From Thermoplasmata archaeon (lineage in GTDB: Archaea; Thermoplasmatota; DTKX01; VGTL01), in assembly GCA_038851035.1 (NCBI GenBank), contig JAWCLH010000018.1, positions 1-55,357 of the forward strand: a stretch of 55,357 nucleotides of DNA, read 5' to 3'. Shown piece by piece: positions 29,419-46,035 of the stretch. Both the position numbers and the translations under genes were made by a program. The notes under the pieces are model-generated. The model searched no databases. It was given only the letters and a program-made list of their open reading frames with translations, and was not told the DNA's origin. Position 1 is the stretch's first letter, and each line of letters begins with the position of its first letter.

Positions 29419-32400
29419 TCACCCCGCCGGGGCCTCCTCCGACTCAGTCGCGAAGCACTGGGTCTCCCTCCCCACGCGCTTCACGTATATCTTCCGGGCC
29501 GCGGTCAGAATGTCGATGTGGTAGTGGACCGTCGGGGCGCTCAGGCCTATTCGAGACGCGATCTCTTTCTGTGAGATGCCGGGGTTCTTGGCGATAATGT
29601 CCAGAAGCTCGCGCTGGATGCGCGTCATCCTGAGCACGAGCTCGTCCGAGGGCTCGGGTATCTTCATCTCCACGGGGTAGAAGCGCCTGAACCTCCCGTC
29701 CATCACCGACTTGATGAAGTTCTCCCTCTCGAGCGTCTTGAGGTGGTAGACGAGCGTCCCGTTCTTCAGGCTCAGGGCCTTGCGAATCGAGTTGTAGTGC
29801 TCGCCGGGGTTGGCCTTGATGTATCCGTAGACCTGCCCCCGGACGAAGTGGTCGAGCACGTCGTCCCTCTTTATCTTGGTGTAGAGCGGGACGAGCAGGA
29901 ACGAGAGCAGGCCGTACCTCCCGCTCTCTGTCCCCGCCCCAAGGGCCCCCAGCGCCCCGAGCGCTATTGCCGCTGCGCCCGCGGCCGCCGCCGCCGGAAT
30001 CGACGGCATTGCCGCGGGCCCCCCGCCGATTCTCACCCTCTCGATGAAGACGTTGTTGGTCTCGTCCCTCTCCACGACAGCGTTTTCTGGGTCGACCTCG
30101 AACCTGAGGGTGTGGGGGCCCGCGGTCGGCCTCCAGGCGAAGTAGGCCGTCGCCTTCGAGCCGCCAGGGAGGACCAGAATCTCCTCGAACTGGGCGCCTT
30201 CACCGTCGACCTTCAGGCTCACACGGACGTTGCGCGCCGGCACTTCTCCCGTGTTGGTCACAGCGACGGCGGCCAAGACCCGCCTACCCTCGGTGAATCT
30301 GTCGGGCGAGTAGCGCACGCTCAGGGAGAGCTCCGGGAGGAGGTAGCGCAGAACGAGGCCCAGGCGCTCCGTGAGGCCTCCGCGCGAGACGGCGGTGACG
30401 AAAATCTCCGGCCGGCCCTCGCCCGGCGCGAGCGGGGCCCTGAGCTCGAGCACAAGACCGGCGGTTGCGCGCGGTTCGAGGCTGACTCCGCGGACCTCGC
30501 GCATCTCCGCGTCCCTCAAGACGGCCGTCCAGCCCTCCGGCGCCTCGACTCCCAGCAAGACATTGTCCGGGGCGTTACCTAAGTTCCTGAGATGGACGAG
30601 GGCGACGGCGACCTCGCCCGGCGCCATCCTGAGCACTGGCGACGATGTGGTCAGGGAGACTCCAAAGACCTCCTCCACAGCGGCGATGAAATCCGCCTCC
30701 GCGCGAGCGCCCGAGGGGGCGGTGAAGACGGCCCTGAGGTTGTACTCCCCAGCGAGGGCGCCGGGGTGCGTGTGGACAAATACCCTGAATGAGAGCTCGG
30801 CCCCGGGTCCAAGGAGCAGAGGCTCCGGGAGCCCGATGAACTCCGCACTCCAGCCGGGTGGGAGCTCGATTCCCACTCTCGCCTCCTCCGCGGCGCTCCC
30901 GCGGTTGCGGAGGGTCAGGAGGACAGGCAGCGCGGAACCGGGTCGGGCCGTGGGCCTCTCGGGAATTGCGTGGGCTAAGAGAGAGTGGGTCTCCCTCACC
31001 GAGACGGTGACGGTGGTCCCGGCCGAGGTGCCCCACTCCCTCGAGAACGCCCAGAGCCTCGCGACAAAACGGCCCGGGGTGCTCTCGGGGGCGCGGACAG
31101 TGAGCCGGAGCATGCCATCCTCGCCGGGCGCGAGGATGAGTTGGTCGGGCGAGAGGGAGTGGGCCCAGCCGCCGCTGCCGGAGACAACCTCGACGGCTGC
31201 CCCTACCTCGCCGGTAAGGGTCCCGGCGTTGCCCACAGTTATATTGAAGTCGGCAGTGCCCCCGGGCTCCACCTCAGCCTCGCTCGCCGAGGGCTGAATT
31301 CGGAGGAGGACGGGCGGCGCCACCAATACCGCGCCCGATAAGGTGGCCGCCTCGCCCGCGGATGGCGTCACGAACCTTAGGGTGAAGGGGAGGACGCTGC
31401 CGGGTGGGGCCAGAGGGTCGGGCGAGGCCGTGAGAAAACGCCTCTCGGTCCCGCCGCGATGAATTATCAGCTCGCTCGTGTCGAGAGAGATGGAGAGGAG
31501 GGGGCCGGAAGAGGCTGTGATCTCGAGCTCCTCGTCGGAGTCCCCACCATTCCTAAGCTCGACAACGAAGCGCGCGGGCGAACCCGGCGCGGCAGCCTGC
31601 TCAGAGGGCTCGAGGAGCGCGGTTACCCTGTGCCTGACCTCGAGCCTTAGAGGGATTTCGACGGCGCGGCTGAGCGAGGAATTCGATGCGGAAGAAATCA
31701 CGACACTTAGCATTGCCCTCCCGCCGCTTGCCGACGCGGGCGGGGTGACCAGGACAATGGCGACGGCTGTCCCGTCGCCGGGGAGGAAGAGCTCGCTGGT
31801 CTCGGGGACCGCTCTCCAGCCGGCCGGGACGGAGGATGGCTCAATGCGCACGAGGAGGGTCTCGGGGGCGCCCCCCGTGCTCCTGACCACGACTGGAATT
31901 CTCGATGCGACGTAGGGGTGGACCACCGCTTCGTCGGCCGGGAAGCCGGTCCCGTGAATTCTGAAGCCCGCCGTGAGGCCCCTCGCGAGCCTGAGCTCTG
32001 GGCCCTCGGCCCAGACGGCGTGGAGCCTGCCGCCCGCGCTGACCGACAGGAGGGGCGGGGATGTGGCGCAGGCCGCGGGCCCTAGCCTCAGGTTGGGCGG
32101 GTAGGCCCTCCACTCCCCGGCCCTGAGGACGGCATAGAGTGCCTCCGGGGTTCCGTAGCGGCCGTCGAGCCAAGCCACGACCAGTTCCCCGCCGGCGCCG
32201 AATGCCAGGGAGGGGTCCGAGATCGCCTCGGCCGGTCCCGTGATGAGAATGACATCGAAGCCCTCTCCCGCAACCACATGGCGCCCGAGGGCTATTCTGC
32301 CCTTCTCGCCGGGACCGCCCGTGTTCCAGGCGAGGACCGCACACCCATCCGTGTCCCTTGCGATCCCGGGCAGGGTACCGGCGGGCAGCAGGGGGACGTG

Positions 32401-33156
32401 GGCCGAGAGCTCGACCCCTCCCGTGGCCCCAAGGCGCAGATAAATTCCGCCGGAGGTCGTGCTCAGGACGAGATCCACGGTACCGTTTTCAGACGGTAGG
32501 AAGGCGCCGTCGAGCACCTGGGCCCCGCCTGGGGCTTCGAAGGAAATGGGGGGCCCCGACGGGGTTCCGCCGGAGCCGAGGGGCTGGAGGAGATATAGGT
32601 AGCGGCCCGCCAGCGGCTCGAAGGACACATAGCCGACCAGCAGCCCTTCGCCCACGGCAACTATAGAAGGCCCGTGGACGCCGAAGGGGTTGCTGCGGAC
32701 GAGCCTATCCACCGACGGCAGTCTCCCGGAGGGGTCGTGGCTCGTCAGGTATATCTCGGTCCCGCCTGAGGCGCGGACGAAATGGATATAACCGAAGGAA
32801 TCACGCGCCGCCTGCGGCGCTCCGCCCCGCGAGGCCCAGAGCTCCCGAGCCGCCGGGCCGAGATATTTCGGGGACTGCAGGGGGCGGCCCTGTGGGTCGA
32901 GAAGGACGTGCCAGACCCCCCCGCTCTCCCATATCAGGCTCTGGGTGCCATCGCTGCTCGAAATCAGGGAAAGGGGTGTGGGACAGAAATCGGAGGCTAT
33001 GGTTTCGGCCCGCGTCCACAGGAGGCCCTGTGCGCGCTCCAGCGAGCCCGAGTCCTCAGGGCAGGGCCCTGCCGAGGCGGTCGGAAGCGGGGCTGAGAGC
33101 AGCCAGATAGCGGCCGCTGCCGCGCAGACCGGCCAGATGCGCCGGGGGACCACCAC
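29419..33156 (-). CDS. Membrane-spanning sensor with double winged-helix cytoplasmic end
   Basis: A 1245-residue protein. A signal peptide (about 10-35) leads to a propeller-like region (about 50-420), then several NEW3/CARDB-type Ig domains (about 420-1030; motifs such as SAEFIGLPEPLLLGPGAELS and FEVDPENAVVERDETNNVFI). A hydrophobic segment follows near 1045-1090. The last 155 residues hold two winged helices: DHFVRGQVYGYIKANPGEHY with SLKNGTLVYHLKTLEREN, then ISQKEIASRIGLSAPTVHYH. This is a one-component transmembrane transcription regulator. The start GTG follows GGAAGGAG. The ligand is unknown. Confidence 0.85.
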   Translation of the reverse strand: MVVPRRIWPVCAAAAAIWLLSAPLPTASAGPCPEDSGSLERAQGLLWTRAETIASDFCPTPLSLISSSDGTQSLIWESGGVWHVLLDPQGRPLQSPKYLGPAARELWASRGGAPQAARDSFGYIHFVRASGGTEIYLTSHDPSGRLPSVDRLVRSNPFGVHGPSIVAVGEGLLVGYVSFEPLAGRYLYLLQPLGSGGTPSGPPISFEAPGGAQVLDGAFLPSENGTVDLVLSTTSGGIYLRLGATGGVELSAHVPLLPAGTLPGIARDTDGCAVLAWNTGGPGEKGRIALGRHVVAGEGFDVILITGPAEAISDPSLAFGAGGELVVAWLDGRYGTPEALYAVLRAGEWRAYPPNLRLGPAACATSPPLLSVSAGGRLHAVWAEGPELRLARGLTAGFRIHGTGFPADEAVVHPYVASRIPVVVRSTGGAPETLLVRIEPSSVPAGWRAVPETSELFLPGDGTAVAIVLVTPPASASGGRAMLSVVISSASNSSLSRAVEIPLRLEVRHRVTALLEPSEQAAAPGSPARFVVELRNGGDSDEELEITASSGPLLSISLDTSELIIHRGGTERRFLTASPDPLAPPGSVLPFTLRFVTPSAGEAATLSGAVLVAPPVLLRIQPSASEAEVEPGGTADFNITVGNAGTLTGEVGAAVEVVSGSGGWAHSLSPDQLILAPGEDGMLRLTVRAPESTPGRFVARLWAFSREWGTSAGTTVTVSVRETHSLLAHAIPERPTARPGSALPVLLTLRNRGSAAEEARVGIELPPGWSAEFIGLPEPLLLGPGAELSFRVFVHTHPGALAGEYNLRAVFTAPSGARAEADFIAAVEEVFGVSLTTSSPVLRMAPGEVAVALVHLRNLGNAPDNVLLGVEAPEGWTAVLRDAEMREVRGVSLEPRATAGLVLELRAPLAPGEGRPEIFVTAVSRGGLTERLGLVLRYLLPELSLSVRYSPDRFTEGRRVLAAVAVTNTGEVPARNVRVSLKVDGEGAQFEEILVLPGGSKATAYFAWRPTAGPHTLRFEVDPENAVVERDETNNVFIERVRIGGGPAAMPSIPAAAAAGAAAIALGALGALGAGTESGRYGLLSFLLVPLYTKIKRDDVLDHFVRGQVYGYIKANPGEHYNSIRKALSLKNGTLVYHLKTLERENFIKSVMDGRFRRFYPVEMKIPEPSDELVLRMTRIQRELLDIIAKNPGISQKEIASRIGLSAPTVHYHIDILTAARKIYVKRVGRETQCFATESEEAPAG

Positions 33157-33252
33157 GGGAACTCCTTCCACCTGCTGCTAAATAAAGCTTCTGGAGAATA
33201 TATACTCTAATTGGTATGCTTGTCTAATTGATTTATAAATATAGCGGCGGGC

Positions 33253-33534
33253 CTACCTCTGGTTGCACTCGGGCATGTTCCCGCCGGAGGTGGACTTGTG
33301 GACGATGAAATGGTTGTTCAGGGCGCTCTGCCACTTGTCCACGTACTCGAATCTAAAGTGGGTCGCCTTGCGCAAGCAGGGGTTCCCGGCGAAGCCGGTG
33401 TTGTACATGTTCTGGAGGGTCTCGCGGATGTTGTTGCTGCCGTCGATATAGATGATGAACTCCAGACTGTCGTAGAACTCGAACACCCCAGGCCTGGGCT
33501 CGACCTTGTTGATCGACTCTTGCCTCCACTCCAT
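33253..33534 (-). CDS. GIY-YIG-like small protein
   Basis: At least 93 residues with a GIY-YIG-like core: RPGVFEFYDSLEFIIYIDGS, then NNIRETLQNMYNTG and RKATHFRFEYVDKWQSALNN. The first motif is GVFEF rather than GIY, so nuclease activity is uncertain. The frame is open upstream of ATG 33534 as ALPISGFQRPL, which looks conserved, so the true start may be a rare codon near 33570. A TATA-like ATTTTATAAC lies near 33600. Confidence 0.6.
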   Translation of the reverse strand: MEWRQESINKVEPRPGVFEFYDSLEFIIYIDGSNNIRETLQNMYNTGFAGNPCLRKATHFRFEYVDKWQSALNNHFIVHKSTSGGNMPECNQR

Positions 33535-35424: not shown

Positions 35425-38400
35425 CTACTGCCGCGGCACACTCAGCCCTCGATAGACTCCAGCCCTTCCGCAGCTCGGGCACGTTACTCTGAGAGGGTAT
35501 GATGCTGGCTGGATATAGAAACGGGTCCGGCATCCCGTGCACTCTATTTGCTTCAGTGCCGTAGGCGGAGAAGGTAGTGGCGATGGCGGTTGCGCCGGGG
35601 CTTCCTCAATCCAGCCCTCAGGAGGCCCGGGGGGGCCGGGTCCGAGGGGCGCTCCGGGAAGAGCCTCCTCCATCTCGAGCGTCTCGATTTCCTCCACCGG
35701 GGGCTGCGGCGCAGCTCCTGGAGTTCCGGGAGGGGCAGGAGGCGATCGCGCTCCCTTCCTCCTCCATCCGCAGACAGCGAGCAACGCTCCGATAACAGCA
35801 AGCCCGAGAGGGAGCCAGAGCAACAGGGGGGTTCCGGCGGTGGTAATTCCAGCCCCCCTAGCCGGAGGGGGAGGGGCGGGGCCGGGCCCGGCGCCCTTCA
35901 GGGTCGTGAAGGTCATGTCCGCGCTCCAGGGCGCCCAGTTCCCGCTGGCGTCCCTGGACCTGACCCTGAAGTGGTAAGTAGTACCCTGCGTCAGGCCCGC
36001 GAGCTGCATGGAGTGGTTGCGGACGAGAACACCGGAGCTCAATACCTGGCCGTAGTGGACGTCCGTTCCGAACTCGACCAGACTGTCCGAGAGCTCGTCC
36101 GTGACCCAGCTGACGACCGCACTCGTGTTGGTTATATTTAGCACAACAATGCCCGTTATGACTGGCGGAGCGCTATCCGGCGCGGCGCTCGTGTTGAAGA
36201 CGATGTCCTCGCTGACGGACGGCCCGTTGCCGAAGACGTCGGTTGACTTGACCCTGAGGTGGTATCTGGTCGATGGCGAAAGGTCCCGGAGCATTACACT
36301 ATGGAAAAGGACATGGCCGGGGTCGCGGGCGCTGAGGCCGTATTCTGCAGAGAGGCCGTAATCCACCTCGCTGTCCGCGAGCTCGTCGGTGCGCCAGGTC
36401 ACGACGGCCCTGTCGGTTGATATTCCCTCGACCCGGACATCGGATATCACGGGTGGAGCCCTGTCCGGCGGAATCGGCGTCTCCATCGTCCTGAACGTGA
36501 GGTCGGGGCCCGTGGCGGCGTTCCCGGCACGGTCCTGTGAGCGGGGCCGGACGTGGTAGCTGGCGCCGGGCGAGAGCCCCGAGAGCAGGAGGCTGTGGCG
36601 GAGGACGAGCGTGCCGTCGGAGGCGCTGAGTCCGTACGAGGTTGTTGGACCGAAGTCGGCGCGGCTGTCCGAGGGCTCGTCGGTCTCCCAGACCACAACG
36701 GCTGAGTTCCCGGTTATCCCCTCAACACCCGCGTTAAAAATAACGGGCGGCCTCAGGTCGGGCGATGAAGCGGTGGTGAACGTGTGGTCCTCGCCGGTTG
36801 CCAGCGCCCCACCCCCGCTCCTCGACACAACCCGGAAGTGGTATGTCGTCGAGGGCGAGAGGCCGGAGAGCTCGATGCTGTGGCTGAGAACGAGGCTCTC
36901 GTCGGACACAAACCGTCCGTAGGATGTGGTGGGGCCGTACTCAACGCGGCTGTCGGCGGGCTCGCTGGTGCGCCATGTAACCACTGCCTGTGTGTCTGTT
37001 ATGCCGGAAACGCTCACATCGGATATGACCGGCGGATTCAGGTCCGGAGGGGTGCCGATACATATTGGGCCGAAGTGGGCCGCGCTCGAGTTCCACCTCA
37101 GGTTCCTGCCCCGCGCCCGGATGTGGAAGTACCACTTACCGGGCTCGAGGGGCGAGCTGGTGGCGTCATGAATGCTGGCTTCCACATCGATTTTGTCGTC
37201 GGGAATTGTGGACGGTGAATTGTCCCAGACGAGGGAGTAGCCGCTCGCCTCCGAGATATTTGTCCAGAGCACATGGACGATGTTGTTCGTGTACCATGTT
37301 CCCGGCTGGGGGTGTGTGTCGCTCCAGACGACGGGGTTCGCGGGGGCGGGCCTCTCCATTATCAGCTGGTAGGCGTGGCCATCGCTACAGGTTACATAAA
37401 TCTCTTTTTGTGATGGGTCGCCCATGGCGCTTCCGGTTGCTATCTCAAAGAATTTTTTATCTTTAATATTCCCGATGTGCGAAGGAGTCCAATCGCCACT
37501 CATTTTATCTCTAGAAAGTTTATAAATTCGACCATCAACAAACAATTCCCGGTTAAAGCCGCTAATATATATTTCATTCGAGCCGTCAGCGTCGATATCA
37601 GCCATTGCAAGTCCCATTATGCTGAATCCATTATTTTCTAATGAAAATATTGTATTATTTATCCAAGAAGAAGCATTCTGGTCATATATAAACTTTTGAA
37701 TTACATCACAGGAGGATACATATATTTCATTTTGGTTATCATGATCCAAGTCGTCAATTTTAATATTTATTTTATAACCAAGAGTATTACTCGTTTTAAC
37801 TTGTCCCAATAGTGTTCTTGTCCAAGAAAATGTTAATGTTGAATAGCTGAATTGATATATATCTCCAGATTCTGAAGTTACATAAATTTCGTTGCTTCCA
37901 TCATTATTCCCATCGGCAATTGCAAGTCTATGTATCGGATCTCTTCTGTTTGGACTTATCTCTTCAGAAGAGCCTATATGAATACTTTTCCAGTTATCAC
38001 TTTTATAAATCATATTTATATTTTGTTCTCTAGTTATTTCAATTAGTTCAATCCGGCCATCATTATTAATATCTCCCATATATATGTCATCTGCGAATGA
38101 TTTTGTCTGATTTATCTCAATATCATATTTGATCCATTTATTATTTTCATATTGGATCTGCATTAAGTAAGAGGGGAGAGATGGCTGAGCCGTTCCTACC
38201 ACATAAAACTCATTCTTATCATCATTATCTCCATCACCAAATATCATTTTAATTATCTTAAGTTCGTCCCCCATAATCTTTCTTGTTGACCAATTATAGG
38301 TCGAAGATTGATAAATATATTGATAAAAACCTGCCATATTATTGTAGTTGTCTTCAATTGGAAAATAGATTTCAGGAATTCCATTATTGTCTATATCACC

Positions 38401-38604
38401 TATTTCTAGTCCAGAAAAATATGAGCTGGAAGACCCTTCGGGTCCACCCATATCGTTGATCAACCAAATTTCTGTTTCCAAGGATGAATATAATGGCATA
38501 TATAACAATAAGATAATTAGAATTAATGTAATCGCTCGGAATTGATTAATAATTAATGATATTGAGACATCTTTTTTTAATAATTTTATTTGATAAGTAT
38601 TCAT
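35425..38604 (-). CDS. FG-GAP/VCBS and FN3 surface protein with cytoplasmic zinc ribbon
   Basis: About 1059 residues. After a hydrophobic N-terminus (ITLILIILLLYMPLYSS) come about six FG-GAP/VCBS-like propeller repeats with calcium-loop text such as GLEIGDIDNNGIPEIYFP, IYMGDINNDGRIELIEI and GLAMADIDADGSNEIYISGF. Four FN3 domains follow (each with a VVTWRTSEPADSRVEYGPTT-like core), then a transmembrane helix (LLLWLPLGLAVIGALLAVCG), a Pro-rich stretch and a C-terminal zinc ribbon (CTGCRTRF...CPSCG). 37,400-38,604 is AT-rich and 35,425-37,380 GC-rich. It begins 16 bp after the preceding gene's stop, so they are co-transcribed. Confidence 0.85.
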   Translation of the reverse strand: MNTYQIKLLKKDVSISLIINQFRAITLILIILLLYMPLYSSLETEIWLINDMGGPEGSSSSYFSGLEIGDIDNNGIPEIYFPIEDNYNNMAGFYQYIYQSSTYNWSTRKIMGDELKIIKMIFGDGDNDDKNEFYVVGTAQPSLPSYLMQIQYENNKWIKYDIEINQTKSFADDIYMGDINNDGRIELIEITREQNINMIYKSDNWKSIHIGSSEEISPNRRDPIHRLAIADGNNDGSNEIYVTSESGDIYQFSYSTLTFSWTRTLLGQVKTSNTLGYKINIKIDDLDHDNQNEIYVSSCDVIQKFIYDQNASSWINNTIFSLENNGFSIMGLAMADIDADGSNEIYISGFNRELFVDGRIYKLSRDKMSGDWTPSHIGNIKDKKFFEIATGSAMGDPSQKEIYVTCSDGHAYQLIMERPAPANPVVWSDTHPQPGTWYTNNIVHVLWTNISEASGYSLVWDNSPSTIPDDKIDVEASIHDATSSPLEPGKWYFHIRARGRNLRWNSSAAHFGPICIGTPPDLNPPVISDVSVSGITDTQAVVTWRTSEPADSRVEYGPTTSYGRFVSDESLVLSHSIELSGLSPSTTYHFRVVSRSGGGALATGEDHTFTTASSPDLRPPVIFNAGVEGITGNSAVVVWETDEPSDSRADFGPTTSYGLSASDGTLVLRHSLLLSGLSPGASYHVRPRSQDRAGNAATGPDLTFRTMETPIPPDRAPPVISDVRVEGISTDRAVVTWRTDELADSEVDYGLSAEYGLSARDPGHVLFHSVMLRDLSPSTRYHLRVKSTDVFGNGPSVSEDIVFNTSAAPDSAPPVITGIVVLNITNTSAVVSWVTDELSDSLVEFGTDVHYGQVLSSGVLVRNHSMQLAGLTQGTTYHFRVRSRDASGNWAPWSADMTFTTLKGAGPGPAPPPPARGAGITTAGTPLLLWLPLGLAVIGALLAVCGWRRKGARSPPAPPGTPGAAPQPPVEEIETLEMEEALPGAPLGPGPPGPPEGWIEEAPAQPPSPLPSPPTALKQIECTGCRTRFYIQPASYPLRVTCPSCGRAGVYRGLSVPRQ

Positions 38605-38620
38605 TGTATCACAGTTAATT

Positions 38621-39901
38621 TTATTGATCAAATCTTATTTGATCCCAATACATTTCACCATGATTAACATTACTTTGTGTATCGATACCCATTTGCAAAT
38701 ATGTGAGGTCATTTTCATCTTTAACTATATTAAGATACATAAGGTCTATTTTCGAATCTGATAAGCCTGGAGGTATAATTAGATTACCATTAATATATAT
38801 TTGATAATAAGGTGAACCAGATTGAGGTTGTGTAGTTACTTTAATATTTAATTTATACCATTGATGGATATTCAATTCGCACACAGGATGATCAGCTGAT
38901 GTAAGAACATAATTCAATTTTACTGTATTCTCTATTTCCTTATAAATAACAAGGTTTATGTGACCATTATAAATCACATGGAAAAAATTACAATTCGGAT
39001 TATCTATATAAATCCACATTGAGACCCAATACGCGCCATAACTCCAGCTCTGTGGATTATAAGAAAAATGGGGCGTTTCTGCCCAAGCCTTTTTATACGG
39101 GGGGCAATTTATATATATATTATTTTTATTATTCCTCCATGATGGGACATTTAAAATGGCATTAAAAACTGTTTGAACGTTCCCATTTCCATTAGATTGG
39201 GCAGTCCAGAAGTCCCTTGCATCGGCGCCTCCATTTTGATAATCTTTCCCCATCCCGAATTCCTCAGATAAATCATAATCATTGACGGTTGTCGATGGTT
39301 GAGGCGTATGATATATTCGAATATTGTCAAAATAGCAATGACCATAATTTTGTTGATTTCCTACTTGACCAATCTCATCATCCCCCATTCGAATAGAATC
39401 GCCATTGGATTGCTCGTCATTAAACTGGCAATTTACCCTGTTCCCCTGATTCAGTGTGACTTGAAAATCAATTCCGTTTCCTGGATTTGCATGAATTTTT
39501 ACAGAATTCCATTGATTAAAAGATAATGAGCCGATAAATCCGCTAGATTGACCATCATAATAATATACCAATGGTTTCCCATCTTGTACATGATCAATTA
39601 CTATCGTTATCCGACGGCTGTCATAAATATAAAACCAATGGAAAGGTCCATTGATAGGGTAAACATATAATTCAGCATAATATTCTTGATCTCCTTGAAA
39701 TGGAATCATTCTATGAGAATCAATATATGCATTATTCTGTTGTCCTTGTGGTGAATTAATTTCTAAAATATATTCATTATGCTGTAATTTATGGAATAAA
39801 AATGGATAATAATTCATATGTAAAATAGTATCGTCATCGTGGGGTGGGCTCTGCCAGCCGTCTAAGTTGACGTCAGACGACTCAAATGCTACATTCCCCA
39901 T
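38621..39901 (-). CDS. Extracellular protein with two LamG/ConA-like domains
   Basis: About 426 residues from ATG 39901, without a membrane anchor. Two jelly-roll domains of the laminin-G/concanavalin type are seen. The first ends GHCYFDNIRIYHTPQP and the second ends GEMYWDQIRFDQ at the C-terminus; both have Trp/Tyr-rich strands such as WSYGAYWVSMWIYID. A likely carbohydrate- or ligand-binding secreted protein. A signal-peptide-like stretch (SASVVLIILIQTSAMG) is encoded just upstream in frame, but its expected first codon is ATA (39946), behind AAGGAGGAG. Strongly AT-rich. First gene of the operon with the FG-GAP protein. Confidence 0.78.
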   Translation of the reverse strand: MGNVAFESSDVNLDGWQSPPHDDDTILHMNYYPFLFHKLQHNEYILEINSPQGQQNNAYIDSHRMIPFQGDQEYYAELYVYPINGPFHWFYIYDSRRITIVIDHVQDGKPLVYYYDGQSSGFIGSLSFNQWNSVKIHANPGNGIDFQVTLNQGNRVNCQFNDEQSNGDSIRMGDDEIGQVGNQQNYGHCYFDNIRIYHTPQPSTTVNDYDLSEEFGMGKDYQNGGADARDFWTAQSNGNGNVQTVFNAILNVPSWRNNKNNIYINCPPYKKAWAETPHFSYNPQSWSYGAYWVSMWIYIDNPNCNFFHVIYNGHINLVIYKEIENTVKLNYVLTSADHPVCELNIHQWYKLNIKVTTQPQSGSPYYQIYINGNLIIPPGLSDSKIDLMYLNIVKDENDLTYLQMGIDTQSNVNHGEMYWDQIRFDQ

Positions 39902-40093
39902 CGCGCTCGTCTGGATAAGAATGATAAGAACAACTGAGGCAGATATCCCTGCGCTCCTCCTTACGGACGTTTCAATATACCCCCGCCGGGTTTAGTGTAT
40001 CCGCAGTCATCGCACAATCAATCGCCATTGCATCCAATAAAACTTTCGCTCCTCTGACCCTTTGCGCGCGCCTCATATCCCTTTCCCCCTTTT

Positions 40094-40109
40094 CCGGCCC
40101 ACGGGCCGG
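40094..40109 (-). promoter_or_regulatory. 5' leader hairpin, copy A
   Basis: CCGGCCC-AC-GGGCCGG, a 7-bp stem between the TATA box and the ribosome-binding site (GGGGGAAAGGG). The same position in copy B has a CCGGC...GCCGG stem with a changed loop. Confidence 0.55.
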
Positions 40110-40170
40110 CATTACCTATATCGTTTTTCTAGTATTTTTTTTTCGATGAGTTTCGGAAATCCGGCCGCGG

Positions 40171-40180
40171 TTTATATAGC
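40171..40180 (-). promoter_or_regulatory. TATA box of the LamG/FG-GAP operon
   Basis: GCTATATAAA on the minus strand, with a second TATAAA just upstream. It is conserved base for base in copy B at 43994-44003. Confidence 0.6.
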
Positions 40181-40282
40181 CTTTATATCCCATTTAAATA
40201 CTCTGAAAATAGTTATTTTTTAACCCGCCCGGCTCTTCACGAGCGGACCCGCGTTTTATCCCGCCGGCTTGCAGCTGCCTCA

Positions 40283-43012
40283 TCACGGCGGCCCCGGAGG
40301 CCCGGGCCCCTCGCCCATTCTTCTCTTCCTCAGCCTCAGGATGATGTATCCGGCGCCGGCGGCCGCGATGAGAACCAGTATCACCACAGGCAGGAGCCAG
40401 TCAGTCTTCTCAGACGGGGTTGGAGGCGGCGGCTTCGGGGGTAAATAGCTCAGGACCAGCTCCGTCCTGTTCAAATTCCAGGCCGCATCGCGGGCCTCGA
40501 TAACAAATCGATTCTCTCCCCTCTCCAGGACCACGGAGAGCGCAAAGATTCCACCCGTCCCGCTGACGGGCTCGCCGTTGATGCTCACAGTTGCCCCCGG
40601 CTCGCTCTGAACCCTAAGCTCGACATTCGCAATCTTCAGGACCCTCTCGACGGGCGCGAGAATAATAATCGGAGGCGGAGTCGTGTCCAACGTAACCCTG
40701 ATGGTTGCCTCTGCCCTGTTCCCGGCGCGGTCGAGCGAGACGGCCGTTATTTTGTTGGCGCCCTCATTCAGGTCAACCATTAGGCTGAAGCTACCGTCGT
40801 CAACGGCCGCATCTATGCCATTAACGCTCACAGCCGCTCCGGTCTCAGTCCTGCCGCGGACCACAACATTGCTCGTGTTGAGCAATGCGCCTTCCTTAGG
40901 CTCCAGAATCTCGATGAAGTTCCCGGTATCAAGATAAACTATGAGCGTCGTCGAGTTCTCGTTCCCGGCCGCGTCGCGGGCGTCGATTAGGAATATATTC
41001 TCTCCCTCCATCAATTCTACAGGGTGCTCGAACGCGCCGTCCCTGCGCAGGTCGAGGGGAACGCCGTTGAGCGTGGCCACGGAGGCCCCGACCACCTTCC
41101 CCTTAATCTCAAGATTCTTATTGTTCGTCAGGCTCCCGTTCTGCGGGCTATCGATTTCAATGGCCGGCGGCGTCGCGTCCCACTCGACCCTGACCCTGTG
41201 CATTCCGGTATTGCCCGCGTCGTCCCACGCCACGGCCATTATGCTGTGCTGGCCTTCGAACGGGAATGTGAAGGTCGTGGAGAAGGTGCCATTGGGACTT
41301 ATCTCAACTTCCCTGCCCGCAACTTCAAGTCTCGTTCCGTTGGTCCTTCCCCTCACCTCAATCGGGTTTTTGTTGGTCACGAGGCCGTCGGGCGGCTCGA
41401 CAATCGTAACATAGGGGCCGGTCTGGTCGAGGGTCACGTTTCTTATCACTTCCGCGACGTTTCCGGCCGCGTCGCGGGCCTGAATGACGAGCGTGTTCAG
41501 GCCTTCATTGAGCCACCAGGTCTGGTTGATGACGCCGTCAATATTGTTGATGGCTTCGTCATTAACGGTGACGCGCGCGCCGGGCTCGGTGGTGCCGATG
41601 ATATTAATCTGAGATGAATTTGTTATGAGGCCCTCGGGCGGGTAGGTGATCTCGAGCGGGGGCGGGACGTCGTCCAAAATGATGCGCACGAATTGATTCT
41701 GGCTCATGTTGACGCCGGTGACGGTGGCGGTGAGGTTGCGCCATTGGGCAACGATTTTGTGGGGGGTGAAAGTAGAGATTAAGTCTGTCGTGATTTGCTT
41801 CCACATCACCGGCAGCCAGGAAATGCGACCTTCATTATCGGTTGTGCACTGGGCAATTAGTTTGTCCTTTACATCATATATTTTCACATCGGCGCCCTCG
41901 AGACCGGACATGTAACTCTCACGCAGAATTTCAAGATTTAAAAACATTGATATGTTAATTTTACTTAGTTTATTCTGAATCGAATAAGTGGAATATGAAG
42001 TGTTTATTAAATTGAGAATTCCATAAACTATATTGTCAGATCCGACCTCAATATCTAGTCTTTTACTTTGAATGCTACAATTAACAAATGTAGCAATGCT
42101 ATTGTAATCAGATAGAATTGCACAACCTCTAGAAATATTGGTGTGGATAAAATTACATTTTTCGATATATCCCCCATAAGACATAATATCGAGTAGCCAA
42201 TCACCAGTATCACTCACGAATGAAGAATTATATATATGTACTTTTCCAAGAGAGAGGGATGTTTCTATAAATGTTGAGTTTTCGATAATCACAAAACCCT
42301 CGGGATTATTAATTGCTACATCAAAAAAACCTAGATCATTATCTTGATTTAAAATGTCGCCATAAAATGTTGAATTTTTTATTATCAAATTTAAACATTG
42401 ATAGATATATACTGGACCCCAACTAACTAGTCCCTCTTCTTTTCTTCTTGTGTTATTCGAATAAAAAGTACTATCCAGAATGGTCGTCGATATATCGATT
42501 ATTTCATCAGTTTTAGTAAGAATTCCAATACCTTCGTAGTAAATCGTCGATTTGGAAATGGTAAAATTATTGGATTCTGTTATTATTCCATTGACTTTAT
42601 GTTCTGGTAATGAATATGCAATATTGCGAATCTCAGTCTCGAAAAAGAGACAATTTGATTTCTGTTTCAATATCACATTATAACCAAATGAATTATTACT
42701 TGCTATTTTTGAATTATAGATTTCAAGAGTTCCTCCATAATCAATAATAATCGCGTGTGAACCATTATATATTGGATTCATTAGAATTATGGAATCTGAT
42801 ATCCACAACAATCCTCCCATTTTAATTGTTAAATTCTTATATATTATTAAAATGCTATTTTCGACTACTATATAATCATCTATTATTTTATCATCCCAGA
42901 TTATCAAGTGATATTTTTCTCCATCATAAGTTTTAAAAGGAAAGACATAATGATTAATTGATATATTAAAAAGGCAACCCAAAATGAGTAGGTAATGAAT
43001 ATATGTTTTCAT
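40283..43012 (-). CDS. Beta-helix and Ig-domain surface protein with membrane anchor
   Basis: About 909 residues. A signal peptide (YIHYLLILGCLFNISINH) precedes a right-handed parallel beta-helix (about 30-340) of the pectate-lyase-like type, seen as repeated short strands with Asn and Ile ladders (IIIDYGGTLEIYNSKIASNN, GFVIIENSTFIETSLSLG). A carboxypeptidase-regulatory-like domain (about 370-440) and about five Ig-like repeats follow (each with an EARDAAGN-like turn), then an anchor helix LLPVVILVLIAAAGAGYIIL and a basic GPGPPGPP tail. It changes from AT-rich to GC-rich around 41,830-41,870. It follows the upstream gene by 8 bp. Confidence 0.83.
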   Translation of the reverse strand: MKTYIHYLLILGCLFNISINHYVFPFKTYDGEKYHLIIWDDKIIDDYIVVENSILIIYKNLTIKMGGLLWISDSIILMNPIYNGSHAIIIDYGGTLEIYNSKIASNNSFGYNVILKQKSNCLFFETEIRNIAYSLPEHKVNGIITESNNFTISKSTIYYEGIGILTKTDEIIDISTTILDSTFYSNNTRRKEEGLVSWGPVYIYQCLNLIIKNSTFYGDILNQDNDLGFFDVAINNPEGFVIIENSTFIETSLSLGKVHIYNSSFVSDTGDWLLDIMSYGGYIEKCNFIHTNISRGCAILSDYNSIATFVNCSIQSKRLDIEVGSDNIVYGILNLINTSYSTYSIQNKLSKINISMFLNLEILRESYMSGLEGADVKIYDVKDKLIAQCTTDNEGRISWLPVMWKQITTDLISTFTPHKIVAQWRNLTATVTGVNMSQNQFVRIILDDVPPPLEITYPPEGLITNSSQINIIGTTEPGARVTVNDEAINNIDGVINQTWWLNEGLNTLVIQARDAAGNVAEVIRNVTLDQTGPYVTIVEPPDGLVTNKNPIEVRGRTNGTRLEVAGREVEISPNGTFSTTFTFPFEGQHSIMAVAWDDAGNTGMHRVRVEWDATPPAIEIDSPQNGSLTNNKNLEIKGKVVGASVATLNGVPLDLRRDGAFEHPVELMEGENIFLIDARDAAGNENSTTLIVYLDTGNFIEILEPKEGALLNTSNVVVRGRTETGAAVSVNGIDAAVDDGSFSLMVDLNEGANKITAVSLDRAGNRAEATIRVTLDTTPPPIIILAPVERVLKIANVELRVQSEPGATVSINGEPVSGTGGIFALSVVLERGENRFVIEARDAAWNLNRTELVLSYLPPKPPPPTPSEKTDWLLPVVILVLIAAAGAGYIILRLRKRRMGEGPGPPGPP

Positions 43013-43020
43013 AATCTTAT

Positions 43021-43893
43021 TTACTCTATAAATCTAAATTTGATATTATATAGATAAGCACTTTTATTAACAAAAACTTCATTAGAATCATAAAGATTTC
43101 TTGAATATATATTGAAATGAAAATCCCATCTTCTATTAAAGTTTTCTTGTTTTGTTATTTCGAAATTTATATTTGGAGGATTCGATTGAGTACTACGACC
43201 GTAATAGACAGTATAATATCCACTTGTTACGTCATTGTGATATCCCCATTGCACGGTCCCATTTACACGACTTTCTAATGTATAAACATAATATACATCT
43301 AAAGATTGTCCTGGAGATAAGTCGTTGGTTCCATCGTCTTGATAACAACATGAACATACAATAGACACACTTTTAAACTTTTTATCAATAAGCTTTTCTT
43401 GACCGTCAATAAGTGTTTTGTAAATATAACTACTGTTCTGGTCATGATTTTTCAACCACATTGAACCCATATCAATTATATTGGAATCTTCAGAAATAGG
43501 TGTAGCCGATAAATCTATATGAAATTGATAATCTGGTGCCATTACACTGCTGATTTCTAAATATGGATGGCAAACATAGTAGCCATCAATCTGCCCCGGA
43601 ATTATCCAGACTATATCCCCCGGCTGCCATCCTCCCTGAAAGTCATCAAGTAAAACTTCAAAATGCCCTTGCTCATCTGTTTGAGCGTAGATCTCAGCCA
43701 TTGTCCTCTGGAGCTGAAATGTTATGTCCAGATTTACAATAGGTTGTCCTGTATTTTCTGCAGTGACGAATCCTTCAATTGAGGGGCCACCTGTGCCGAA
43801 AGTTGGAACTGGAATAGTCGTCATGACCAGAATCCCAATGACCATCGCCCTCCATAAAACTTTCGCCACTCTGGCCCTCTGCGCGCGCCTCAT
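43021..43893 (-). CDS. Secreted protein with carboxypeptidase-regulatory-like domain
   Basis: About 290 residues. MRRAQRARVAKVLWRAMVIG starts a signal peptide encoded inside repeat copy B. A CarboxypepD_reg-like domain follows (SIEGFVTAENTGQPIVNLDI, then DEQGHFEVLLDDFQGGWQPG), and the remaining ~170 residues are AT-rich-encoded and unrecognised, without an anchor. GGGGGAAAGCGAT precedes the ATG. It forms an operon with the beta-helix protein (8-bp gap), so the two may work together outside the cell. Confidence 0.78.
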   Translation of the reverse strand: MRRAQRARVAKVLWRAMVIGILVMTTIPVPTFGTGGPSIEGFVTAENTGQPIVNLDITFQLQRTMAEIYAQTDEQGHFEVLLDDFQGGWQPGDIVWIIPGQIDGYYVCHPYLEISSVMAPDYQFHIDLSATPISEDSNIIDMGSMWLKNHDQNSSYIYKTLIDGQEKLIDKKFKSVSIVCSCCYQDDGTNDLSPGQSLDVYYVYTLESRVNGTVQWGYHNDVTSGYYTVYYGRSTQSNPPNINFEITKQENFNRRWDFHFNIYSRNLYDSNEVFVNKSAYLYNIKFRFIE

Positions 43894-43917
43894 ATCGCTT
43901 TCCCCCTACCCCTTTTT

Positions 43918-43933
43918 CCGGCCCTCCAGCCGG
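43918..43933 (-). promoter_or_regulatory. 5' leader hairpin, copy B
   Basis: CCGGC-CCTCCA-GCCGG, a 5-bp stem at the position equivalent to the copy A hairpin. The loop differs but the stem is kept. Confidence 0.5.
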
Positions 43934-43993
43934 CACTTCCTATAACGCTCTTCTAGTATTTTTTTTCGATGAGTTTCGTAAATCCGGCCGCGG

Positions 43994-44003
43994 TTTATAT
44001 AGC
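43994..44003 (-). promoter_or_regulatory. TATA box of the CarboxypepD_reg/beta-helix operon
   Basis: TTTATATAGC on the plus strand, GCTATATAAA on the minus strand, about 100 bp before ATG 43893. Same as 40171-40180. Confidence 0.6.
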
Positions 44004-44046
44004 CTTTATATCCCATTTATATCCCGCCGGATTTCAGCCATCCGCC

Positions 44047-44360
44047 TCACGGCGGCCCCGGGGGCCCGGGCCCCTCGCCCGTCCTCCTTTTCCTCGCCCT
44101 CAGGGCGATGTATCCGGCCCCGGCGGCCGCGATGACAATCAGTATTGCGACGGGCAGGAGCCAGTCGACTTTTTCAGACGGCTCTGGCAGGTGCGGCTTT
44201 GGAGTGGCGTGGCTCAGGACTAATTTTATGCTGTTCACATTCCCTGCCGCGTCCCGGGCCCTCATGAATAGCCCGCTCCCGCCCCTGTGCGGGCCAATAG
44301 GGAGCGCAAAAAAGCCTCTGATACTGACCGCTCACGTTAACGCTCACGATTACCACACCC
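44047..44360 (-). pseudogene. Truncated Ig-domain plus anchor remnant
   Basis: The open part from MRARDAAGNVNSIKLVLSH through the anchor LLPVAILIVIAAAGAGYIAL ends in RKRRTGEGPGPPGPP, matching the end of the beta-helix protein. Further upstream the frame keeps similarity (GFFALPIGPHRGGSGLF) and then breaks near 44320 into another frame (VSVNVSGQ). This is the leftover end of a third anchored gene, truncated beside the toxin-antitoxin pair. Confidence 0.8.
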
Positions 44361-44390
44361 CGCCCGGGAGAGATTTAAAAAGCAGGGGCA

Positions 44391-44722
44391 TCACTCAATC
44401 ATTGTGGAAATCTTTTCAAGCAGAGGCGGAATGTGTTTGGTCATCACATCCCAAACGATTCTGTAGTCGACACCGAGATAGTCATGAATAAGGACATCCC
44501 TCATGCCCGCCATCTCCCTCCAGTTGACTTCGGAGTGCCTCATCCGGAACTCCTCAGGAATTCTCTTGGCTGCCTTCCCGATTATCTCGAGGCTCCTCAC
44601 CGAGGCTCTCTTGAAATCTTCATCAGCCAGGAACTCCTCCAGATTCGTTTTTTCGTGAGATTGACCAGATACTCGCATTCGTCCCGGATGTGCCTGAGGT
44701 ACTCAATGCAATCCTTCGGCAT
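44391..44722 (-). pseudogene. HepT-type toxin gene with a one-base frameshift
   Basis: The first 22 codons ([20 protein letters not shown]) are in one frame and the rest in another ([20 protein letters not shown]). The joint is an AAAAAA run near 44656-44661, where one extra A would restore about 110 residues. The HEPN RNase motif RDVLIHDY (RxxxxHxY) is intact in the second part. The start lies inside the end of mntA. Frameshifting suggests an inactive toxin or an assembly error. Confidence 0.75.
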
Positions 44723-45026
44723 ATTCAACCTCGCGGAGGATGTGCGGACCAAGATAGGGGCTGAGGCCGCCCACGGTAACTAGGTCTATTTTCCCTCTCA
44801 GCAGTTGCGTCAGGAAGGAGTGAAGGCCCATCAGGTCGGCGAAAGTCTCCCGGCCGGGCTCGAACTCGACCAGAAGATCAATATCACTATCTTCACGAGC
44901 GCGGCCCGCCCTCACGGAGCCGAAGAGACCGATTCTCCTGACCCCGAACTCTCGCAGCCTCTCCGCACTGGAGGACAGCTTCCGGAGGACCGCCGATTTA
45001 CTCGGTGGGCCCTTGTTGTCTGTCAT
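44703..45026 (-). CDS. MntA-type minimal nucleotidyltransferase antitoxin
   Basis: About 107 residues. The nucleotidyltransferase motif GLFGSVRAGRAREDSDIDLL (GS...DxD) is intact. MNT proteins of this type neutralise HepT by adenylating it. ATG 45026 follows GGAG 6 bp upstream. It overlaps the hepT start by 20 bp. Confidence 0.85.
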   Translation of the reverse strand: MTDNKGPPSKSAVLRKLSSSAERLREFGVRRIGLFGSVRAGRAREDSDIDLLVEFEPGRETFADLMGLHSFLTQLLRGKIDLVTVGGLSPYLGPHILREVEYAEGLH

Positions 45027-45313
45027 GCCGGACTCCTGCATTCGCAGCGATTATTAAATGAATGTGTTAGAAGATAAATTTTTCATTGGAGCACCGGTGA
45101 GGCGTCGCAACCACCGCAACAGTAATCGAGTACCTCAGCCCTCGCAATGAGTAATTCCGCCCCGCCCACCCACAACCAGACCCGCCCCCCTCCCGCCGCC
45201 GGATTCCAGTCATCGTCCTCACGGCGGCCCGTCCGGCGAGCGCCCGCCCGCTCTCCCCCTCCATGAGCGGACGCGAGGGTGGTGGGGGTGGCCGGCCCGG
45301 GAGATTTCGGGCC

Positions 45314-45718
45314 TTACCTCACGATCAGCACCGGCCTACTTGCGTAGCGCACGACGCGGTCCGCAACGCTGCCTATCGCGAACCGGCCGATCTTGCTCAG
45401 GCCCCTGTGGCCGATGACGATGATGTCCGCGCTAAGCTCCGCGCTCAGGTTGAGAATCTCGTCCGCGATGTCGCCCTCTCGCACCACGCCCCGCGCGCTC
45501 ACGCCCCTGCCCCTCAGCTCCTCCACGGCCGCCTCGACCATCGCGCGGGCCTTTGAGGTCGATACGTCGGGCGGGACGTCCGCGAACTCCTTGATGACCG
45601 CCGTCGGGACGACCATGACCAGAACCAGCTCGTCGCCCGGTTTCATGAGCCCCGCGGCCTGCTGGAGGGCCTTTTTGGAGGCCTCGGAGCCGTCGTAGGC
45701 GACCAGCTTGACTCCCAT
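45314..45718 (-). CDS. Universal stress protein (UspA family)
   Basis: A 134-residue single-domain protein. MGVKLVAYDGSEASKKALQQ starts the fold, and the nucleotide-binding tail reads IIVIGHRGLSKIGRFAIGSV and ADRVVRYASRPVLIVR, the usual G-2x-G-9x-G(S/T) ATP motif. Cytoplasmic. It sits 4 bp downstream of the small zinc protein gene. It likely binds ATP or AMP in stress response; the partner is unknown. Confidence 0.92.
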   Translation of the reverse strand: MGVKLVAYDGSEASKKALQQAAGLMKPGDELVLVMVVPTAVIKEFADVPPDVSTSKARAMVEAAVEELRGRGVSARGVVREGDIADEILNLSAELSADIIVIGHRGLSKIGRFAIGSVADRVVRYASRPVLIVR

Positions 45719-45722
45719 CGAA

Positions 45723-45884
45723 TCACTCGTGCCATGGCTTGCACTTCTTGTGCCAGTACTTCGTTAGAGAGCCGAAGCGCGTGGGCGCGGCCTCGCCCCT
45801 CTCGTACATCATGATTCCGTCGTACTGGACCACCACCTTCTCCCCGCTCCTGATCTCCTCTCCGCACTTCTTGCACTTCACCAT
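45723..45884 (-). CDS. Small zinc-binding protein
   Basis: A 53-residue protein: MVKCKKCGEEIRSGEKVV, then LTKYWHKKCKPWHE. The CxxC and HxxC pairs suggest a single treble-clef or LIM-like zinc site. It is too short for a standard database domain to be certain. It directly precedes the UspA gene. Confidence 0.75.
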   Translation of the reverse strand: MVKCKKCGEEIRSGEKVVVQYDGIMMYERGEAAPTRFGSLTKYWHKKCKPWHE

Positions 45885-46035
45885 TTCGCTCACCGTTAGG
45901 CGCTCTTTACAATGGGCATCGAAGCGATTCCCCTATTCCGGTTTGCCTATATCTAATTAACTTTCGACGGGCGCCCAGGGAGGTCTCATGCCCGGACCAA
46001 TATATTTATCTCCGACGCCGGAGATGTTCTTCCAG

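Follow-up and report, generated by a model that had tools for sequence, protein, structure and literature searches.

On the minus strand of a 55,357-nt window (contig JAWCLH010000018.1 of the Thermoplasmata archaeon assembly GCA_038851035.1, positions 1 to 55,357), one gene encodes a protein, here called the regulator, whose exported part is collinear with proteins that are encoded at unlinked sites of the same genome, end in a PGF motif and lack winged helices. This collinearity is what is new here. The anatomy of the protein, its family, the homology of its ectodomain and its probable topology were established computationally. With slightly better than even confidence, we favor the reading that it is a type-I, kinase-free one-component transcription regulator of the membrane, which would read the surface layer through an ectodomain that it shares with that layer. 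Little is known about how archaea that carry large anchored surface proteins perceive the outside and adjust their surface; a regulator related to the cell's own surface proteins suggests that an archaeon could monitor its own surface and adjust genes.

Anatomy and topology of the regulator

The initial annotation had placed a signal peptide, a propeller, Ig-type domains, a membrane segment and two winged helices in one chain, and this architecture was borne out by Pfam searches and AlphaFold models. A full-length relative from another genus of the same family aligned with the regulator over residues 12-1250 at 46% identity, indicating that the architecture is not due to chance. Residue numbers refer to the 1250-aa version starting at GTG 33171; AAGGAG lies just 5′ of GTG 33156, and that start is at least equally likely.

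29419..33171, minus strand: regulator gene, 1250 aa from GTG 33171 or 1245 aa from GTG 33156
33191..33243, minus strand: promoter block, TATA + AATTAGAyAAGCrTACCAATyAGAGTATATA..CTCCAG, conserved in the orthologue of genome G001
33070..33156, minus strand: signal peptide (to ...PTASA), assigned by eye on the sequence
31957..33024, minus strand: beta-propeller, about residues 50-405 (AlphaFold model and Foldseek; boundaries approximate)
30352..31944, minus strand: NEW3/Ig-type domains, about residues 410-940 (Pfam PF10633; model as far as residue 600)
30046..30336, minus strand: CARDB domain, residues 946-1042 (Pfam PF07705; matches to PDB 2kl6 and 3idu; model)
29935..30000, minus strand: transmembrane helix, residues 1058-1079 (model and family hydropathy)
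29812..29928, minus strand: conserved juxtamembrane helix, residues 1082-1120, ESGRYGLLSFLLVPLYTKIKRDDVLDHFVRGQ... (alignments and model)
29665..29841, minus strand: winged helix 1 (HTH_HVO_0163_N), residues 1111-1169 (Pfam; 93% identity to the G001 orthologue)
29452..29628, minus strand: winged helix 2 (HTH_24/MarR-like), residues 1182-1240 (Pfam and model)

Four Pfam families scored above their curated cut-offs: NPCBM_assoc/NEW3 (three stretches, 6e-17, the best at residues 743-816), CARDB (residues 946-1042, 2.7e-16), HTH_HVO_0163_N (residues 1111-1169, 1.2e-13) and HTH_24 (residues 1182-1224, 1.3e-16). The last two are DNA-binding families, matched at 51.4 bits (PF24266; cut-off 31) and 60.4 bits (PF13412; cut-off 21.9), and by its gathering cut-off the protein is a member of the HTH_HVO_0163_N family. 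No histidine kinase or receiver domain was listed among the Pfam matches up to E 1. Together with the signal peptide and the single transmembrane helix, these results support well the earlier suggestion of a membrane regulator that works without a kinase. The propeller was absent from the Pfam matches; it emerged when residues 36-600 were modeled with AlphaFold from only 4 sequences (predicted local distance difference test score, pLDDT, 77.6; predicted template modeling score, pTM, 0.65). Foldseek matched this model to sialidases and integrin alpha in the PDB, with E values down to 6.6e-15 and a loose superposition (query TM-score 0.28-0.40), to PLL-type lectin propellers (target TM-score 0.61-0.69) and, as match 25, to the propeller sensor BT4663 (4a2l). 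A model of residues 942-1250 (39 sequences; pLDDT 86.8) showed a CARDB sandwich, the transmembrane helix at 1058-1079, a long helix at 1082-1120 and the two winged helices.

Relatives were sampled by a scan with a single peptide pattern, which drew 50 loci from named genomes; 49 fit Thermoplasmatota (Euryarchaeota, Thermoplasmata, Thermoplasmatales, Methanomassiliicoccales and Marine Group III), the remaining one being a weak Bathyarchaeota match. The regulator was aligned with 48 of the 50 loci (without L117 and L126; alignment A2) or with 38 of them (A3). Both winged-helix families were matched by all 49 scanned members (E ≤ 0.001 for PF24266), and the FYP at the wing end was conserved (F invariant, Y and P in at least 90% of 39 alignment rows), with basic residues alongside. 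These data bear on the possibility that the protein is a structural component of the surface whose cytoplasmic winged helices act as an anchor or a protein–protein contact instead of controlling genes. Such a role would suit the existence of collinear surface relatives without winged helices and the use of winged-helix folds for other purposes (Foldseek lists ScpB and SelB). However, both domains match DNA-binding families strongly, FYP is kept beside basic residues, and soluble relatives with two winged helices exist (the same genome has such open frames, 209-237 aa long), so that we consider a purely structural role very improbable.

Gene calls for the topology, orthologue, promoter and neighbor/pairing comparisons came from a custom script, not a trained gene finder. 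Topology was counted over 60 of 70 family members, the 10 without the core motif not being counted. A hydrophobic helix preceded the core motif (TExGrYxxLxxxxVPLYtkIKk+xVLDhfvRG) in 59 of the 60, at a near-constant spacing of 15-21 residues in 56. The mean net charge was −0.95 before the transmembrane segment versus +1.7 after VPLY, with 47 of 60 members in that direction, and basic residues also follow the membrane part of the regulator. Among 56 complete open reading frames, 51 had an N-terminal hydrophobic segment and 53 had no third one. Since the helix before the motif, the charge pattern, the N-terminal segment and the lack of a further segment all agree, the C-terminus is predicted to lie inside, and a type-I topology with a cytoplasmic C-terminus is probable. 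Two features tell the other way: the core motif contains another hydrophobic stretch, short (about 12 residues) and less hydrophobic than the transmembrane helix, which leaves some doubt about topology, and the transmembrane region reached a pLDDT of only 62-79 in the model. The winged helices are unlikely to be turned to the outside of the cell by a hairpin.

The membrane region would also be central if signaling proceeded by regulated proteolysis: the ectodomain would be shed or bound, an intramembrane protease would cut the transmembrane helix, and the freed winged-helix fragment would regulate in the cytoplasm. Small residues are abundant in the transmembrane segments (on average 8.1 G/A/S in 19 residues across the 60 members, a value without a comparison set), the C-terminal module is about the size of the soluble relatives, and there is a precedent in RsgI of Clostridium thermocellum, which is reported to be cut in its transmembrane segment by RseP (PMC12203970). 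By contrast, the juxtamembrane part is 68-82% identical between regulator orthologues, and this conservation and the near-constant spacing exceed what a passive leash needs. We regard proteolysis as unlikely.

Ectodomains shared with surface proteins

A search with the full protein retrieved proteins that matched it to about residue 1071 and ended there. Within the regulator's own genome (G000; 2.69 Mb in 50 contigs, 99% complete), C38, a protein of 1122 aa without winged helices, aligned with regulator residues 10-1050 (26%, E 2e-72); C40b, likewise without winged helices, aligned with residues 360-1060, about two thirds of the ectodomain (28%, E 7e-65); and C40a aligned with residues 49-1043 (26%, E 7e-34). 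C38 and C40b, both unlinked to the regulator gene, end in PGF, a hydrophobic stretch and RRRR or RRRK, an end that C40a lacks. An archaeosortase of the type that matches such ends is encoded in the genome (TIGR04125, 111 bits vs a cut-off of 75). The regulator ends in winged helix 2; lacking the terminal PGF and the hydrophobic and basic segments after it, it does not qualify as a PGF-CTERM substrate. This collinear homology to the cell's own surface-type proteins is a stronger fact than the likeness of the propeller to lectin and sialidase propellers.

In an unrooted tree of 13 ectodomains (the partial matches L070, L071 and L138-L140 and CARDB-only matches were left out), 4 regulator and 9 surface ectodomains fell on opposite sides of one branch with support 100/99. 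The branch was retained at 80/90, 100/100 and 100/100 when the long regulator row of G002, that of G003 or both were removed, and the tree program warned of long branches and uneven composition. The split fits one ancient exchange between the anchor and the module of transmembrane helix and winged helices, whose direction is not established because the tree is unrooted. Judged from the sequences, the regulator ectodomain probably comes from the same stock as the PGF-ended surface proteins of the lineage, the order of origin not being established. In six regulator orthologue pairs of G000 and G001, winged helix 1 was 81-93% identical and winged helix 2 53-81%, whereas the ectodomains were only 39-49% identical (40.5% for this gene); PGF-ended surface proteins of the two genomes were 54-71% identical (5 pairs). 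These identities suggest that the output is conserved and the input changes faster.

In the mechanism that we favor, the signal peptide would export the propeller–NEW3–CARDB ectodomain and a single helix would span the membrane, while the conserved juxtamembrane helix would keep both winged helices on the cytoplasmic face of the membrane, to bind promoters there without a kinase. Because the ectodomain is of the same stock as PGF-ended surface proteins, the likeliest input would be the state of the surface layer, sensed through packing with the surface relatives or through a ligand common to them. The signal would cross the transmembrane and juxtamembrane helices as an altered dimer or helix geometry, assuming that the protein dimerizes, and could lead to either activation or repression. 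The regulator would most likely act on its own promoter and on the genes, unlinked to its own, that encode its ectodomain relatives.

The module is common to six paralogues in G000, this gene included, and their ectodomains differ; a seventh member is short.

C20: PQQ propeller + PKD
C12: PPC + cadherin-like/Ig
C28: CarboxypepD_reg-like
C14: NEW3
C30: Big_7
C34: short seventh member, 278 aa, almost no ectodomain

A further copy of the module lies in two frames near a contig end (L032/L033, G000:C3:133933-134356) and could be a pseudogene or reflect an error of assembly.

Several paralogues stand next to surface genes. The gene after C12, on the same strand, encodes a PGF-ended protein, and the two ectodomains align over most of their length (E 4e-49); this pair recurs, with homologous ectodomains, in G001 (E 4e-42) and G002 (E 8e-15). 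Downstream of C14 lies the gene of a PGF-ended protein whose ectodomain is weakly similar to that of C14 (E 2e-7); the PGF-ended protein after C30 shows no such similarity. The C14-type arrangement recurs in L107 and, one gene further on, in G001, and the C30-type arrangement in G001 and G002, with no within-pair homology at E 1e-4 in those recurring pairs that were compared. With a custom-made PGF pattern, and omitting seven loci that repeat G001/G002 stretches, PGF-like genes made up 9 of 40 same-strand downstream neighbors vs 35 of 587 other genes (p 0.001). By set, the counts were 3/5 vs 10/153 in G000 (p 0.004), 2/8 vs 7/105 in G001 (p 0.12), 2/7 vs 3/87 in G002 (p 0.04) and 2/20 vs 15/242 in all others (p 0.38), showing that the signal comes from G000-G002; one of the two PGF-like neighbors elsewhere, L093, reads PAL instead of PGF. 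Homologous ectodomains were found in 7 of 73 same-strand adjacent genes of the discovery set vs 3 of 460 others (p 6e-5). This set and the PGF-neighbor set contain orthologous pairs and near-identical genomes, and the discovery-set pairs amount to about four independent types (C12-type, C14-type, L097/L099 and L091). Another recurring pair (L093, L101, L104, L109 and L111) consists of a regulator of about 340 aa followed by a surface-type protein of about 970 aa with a C-terminal transmembrane segment and basic tail; the latter are 36-76% identical among the four compared, L104 being known by size and C-terminus only.

We tentatively propose, as a possible but rather doubtful extension, a 'mirror sensor', in which each regulator would be a reporter copy of one surface protein and would tune the gene of that protein. 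Ectodomain shuffling would have copied a surface protein, its archaeosortase anchor being swapped for a transmembrane helix and a double winged helix, and the regulator would lie in or beside the layer of its surface protein. The 1250-aa protein would be an unlinked case, and a C12-type regulator with its PGF-ended neighbor a linked one. The ectodomain relatives also name candidate targets, C38 and C40b in the case of the 1250-aa regulator and, in that of C12, its PGF-ended neighbor.

Promoters and the neighboring array

The promoter block scored 66 against that of the G001 orthologue, ranking fifth of 39 orthologous pairs, and the four pairs above it look like coding sequence by eye; the other five regulators with an orthologue scored 16-25. 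This conservation is consistent with possible autoregulation and does not show it. A 93-aa open reading frame just upstream of the regulator (33253-33534, minus strand) is 80% identical in G001, where the adjacency is kept, and has no Pfam match at E 0.01.

The initial annotation had proposed a sensor of a polymer or cell-wall component and had named the neighboring surface-protein array (35425-49032) as a candidate target, which might be recognized by palindromes shared upstream of surface genes. Control of the array would fit the lectin- and sialidase-like propeller, and the array begins only about 2.3 kb from the regulator. Nevertheless, palindromes and 8-mers common to the regulator and array promoters were no more frequent than in shuffles, the array promoters do not carry the conserved block, and its core (33206-33227, 22 bases) occurs only once in the genome even when 3 mismatches are allowed. 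The regulator and the array are separated by an AAA_14/DUF4143 gene, and no array protein matched the regulator ectodomain at E 1e-3. The array proteins also gave no tblastn match (E 1e-8) in the regulator flanks of G002 and G003, searched over about 4-8 kb, in which at least two unannotated neighbors begin with a signal-like segment; the G001 contig ends there. With no shared operator, no second core site and no linkage in G002 or G003, the array is not supported as the target, and we consider its control by the regulator quite improbable.

Inside the array, two AT-rich stretches (38001-40000 and 42001-44000) have 33% GC, compared with 55-71% in the remaining 2-kb steps from position 36 kb onward. 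GC-rich inverted repeats of the GGGGCCCGGGCCCC type lie upstream of 43893, before the gene 43021-43893, with 15 overlapping matches vs a mean of 1 in mononucleotide shuffles.

Returning to a regulator of its own surface relatives, several results weigh against this reading or limit it. No operator common to the regulator and its surface relatives rose above background in pattern searches, in promoter alignments against the upstream regions of 156 and 114 genes, or in the comparison of palindromes and 8-mers. The C38 promoter was the best non-self match to the G001 regulator promoter, and its score of 27 vs 26 for the next gene gives no separation; ten comparisons between promoters of regulators and surface relatives ranked from 2 to 106 (scores 12-27). 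Neither C38 nor C40b was among the matches of the PGF_CTERM model at E 0.1, so that their anchor is assigned from motif and context. Nor is every paralogue twinned: C20 and C30 have only partial ectodomain matches in the genome, C34, with almost no ectodomain, has no ectodomain twin, and the twin of C28 (L208:2475-6767; 32%, query residues 65-922) carries a transmembrane segment and DUF4129 instead of a PGF anchor. Finally, the pairing was not replicated significantly in 9 further genomes (20 loci, 13 usable regulators; 1/15 vs 0/74, p = 0.17), and a general pairing rule is thus not shown.

Separately, a TATA+CAATTAGA match that links the regulator promoter to that of a surface gene in G001 was rejected, the pattern having been derived from those two promoters. 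The transmembrane segment with DUF4129 in the L208 protein is another output behind an outer part common to the C28 regulator.

Spread in the phylum and comparison with known systems

The module matched (E 1e-15) in 62 of 81 Thermoplasmatota genomes, this one included, at 0 to 28 per genome, some matches being short or interrupted frames; in the richest genomes, scoring was limited to 39 candidates. A full-length search matched some part of the regulator in 36 of 41 genomes, again counting its own, and a single-sequence query found no viral relatives. Ectodomains vary among the 49 scanned members (PKD 9, FG-GAP 8, CARDB 7, NEW3 7, NosD 6, and others). With its one conserved transmembrane–DNA module and its exchangeable ectodomains, such a numerous family could provide this phylum with a main route for sensing the outside and adjusting the surface.

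One-component transmembrane transcription regulators (TTRs) are known (Demey et al. 2023, PMC10269533), and the regulator has what defines them, a predicted transmembrane region and a predicted DNA-binding domain in the same chain; like them, it would act from the membrane. It differs in having a doubled DNA-binding part, placed at the C-terminal end of a chain that begins with a signal peptide (type I). The survey gives an archaeal mean of 4 TTRs, whereas a single genome here has as many as 28 module matches, not all of them TTRs given the short and interrupted frames; nowhere in the main text of the survey is the string "Thermoplasmat" found (PMC10269533).

ToxR/CadC and the archaeal ArnR resemble the regulator in having a membrane-tethered winged helix or helix-turn-helix. 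In ToxR/CadC, a cytoplasmic winged helix of the OmpR/PhoB type is N-terminal, followed by a transmembrane segment and an ectodomain. By contrast, the winged helices of the regulator are C-terminal and of another family, and its Pfam listing contains no DNA-binding domain related to those of ToxR, CadC or ArnR. ArnR, too, is described as carrying its helix-turn-helix N-terminally (PMC13286277).

The PGF-CTERM/archaeosortase surface proteins share the ectodomain, collinear with C38 and, over about two thirds, with C40b; the regulator has the transmembrane helix and winged helices in place of the anchor and no PGF signal. Within the open-access literature, mostly titles and abstract openings, we found no account of a C-terminal double winged helix behind a signal peptide, of an expansion of this double-winged-helix family in Thermoplasmatota, or of regulator ectodomains common to anchored surface proteins.

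Hybrid two-component systems such as BT4663 resemble the regulator in their exported propeller sensor. They have a membrane segment and a C-terminal helix-turn-helix. The regulator differs from them in having no listed histidine kinase or receiver domain. The outer modules of RsgI resemble parts of the enzymes under its regulation. RsgI/SigI of cellulolytic clostridia is likewise a membrane sensor with outer sensory modules (PMC6056542), but RsgI is bacterial and an anti-sigma factor, not a DNA binder. By analogy, the propeller sensors of hybrid two-component systems and anti-sigma factors of the RsgI type would be the closest working counterparts of the regulator.

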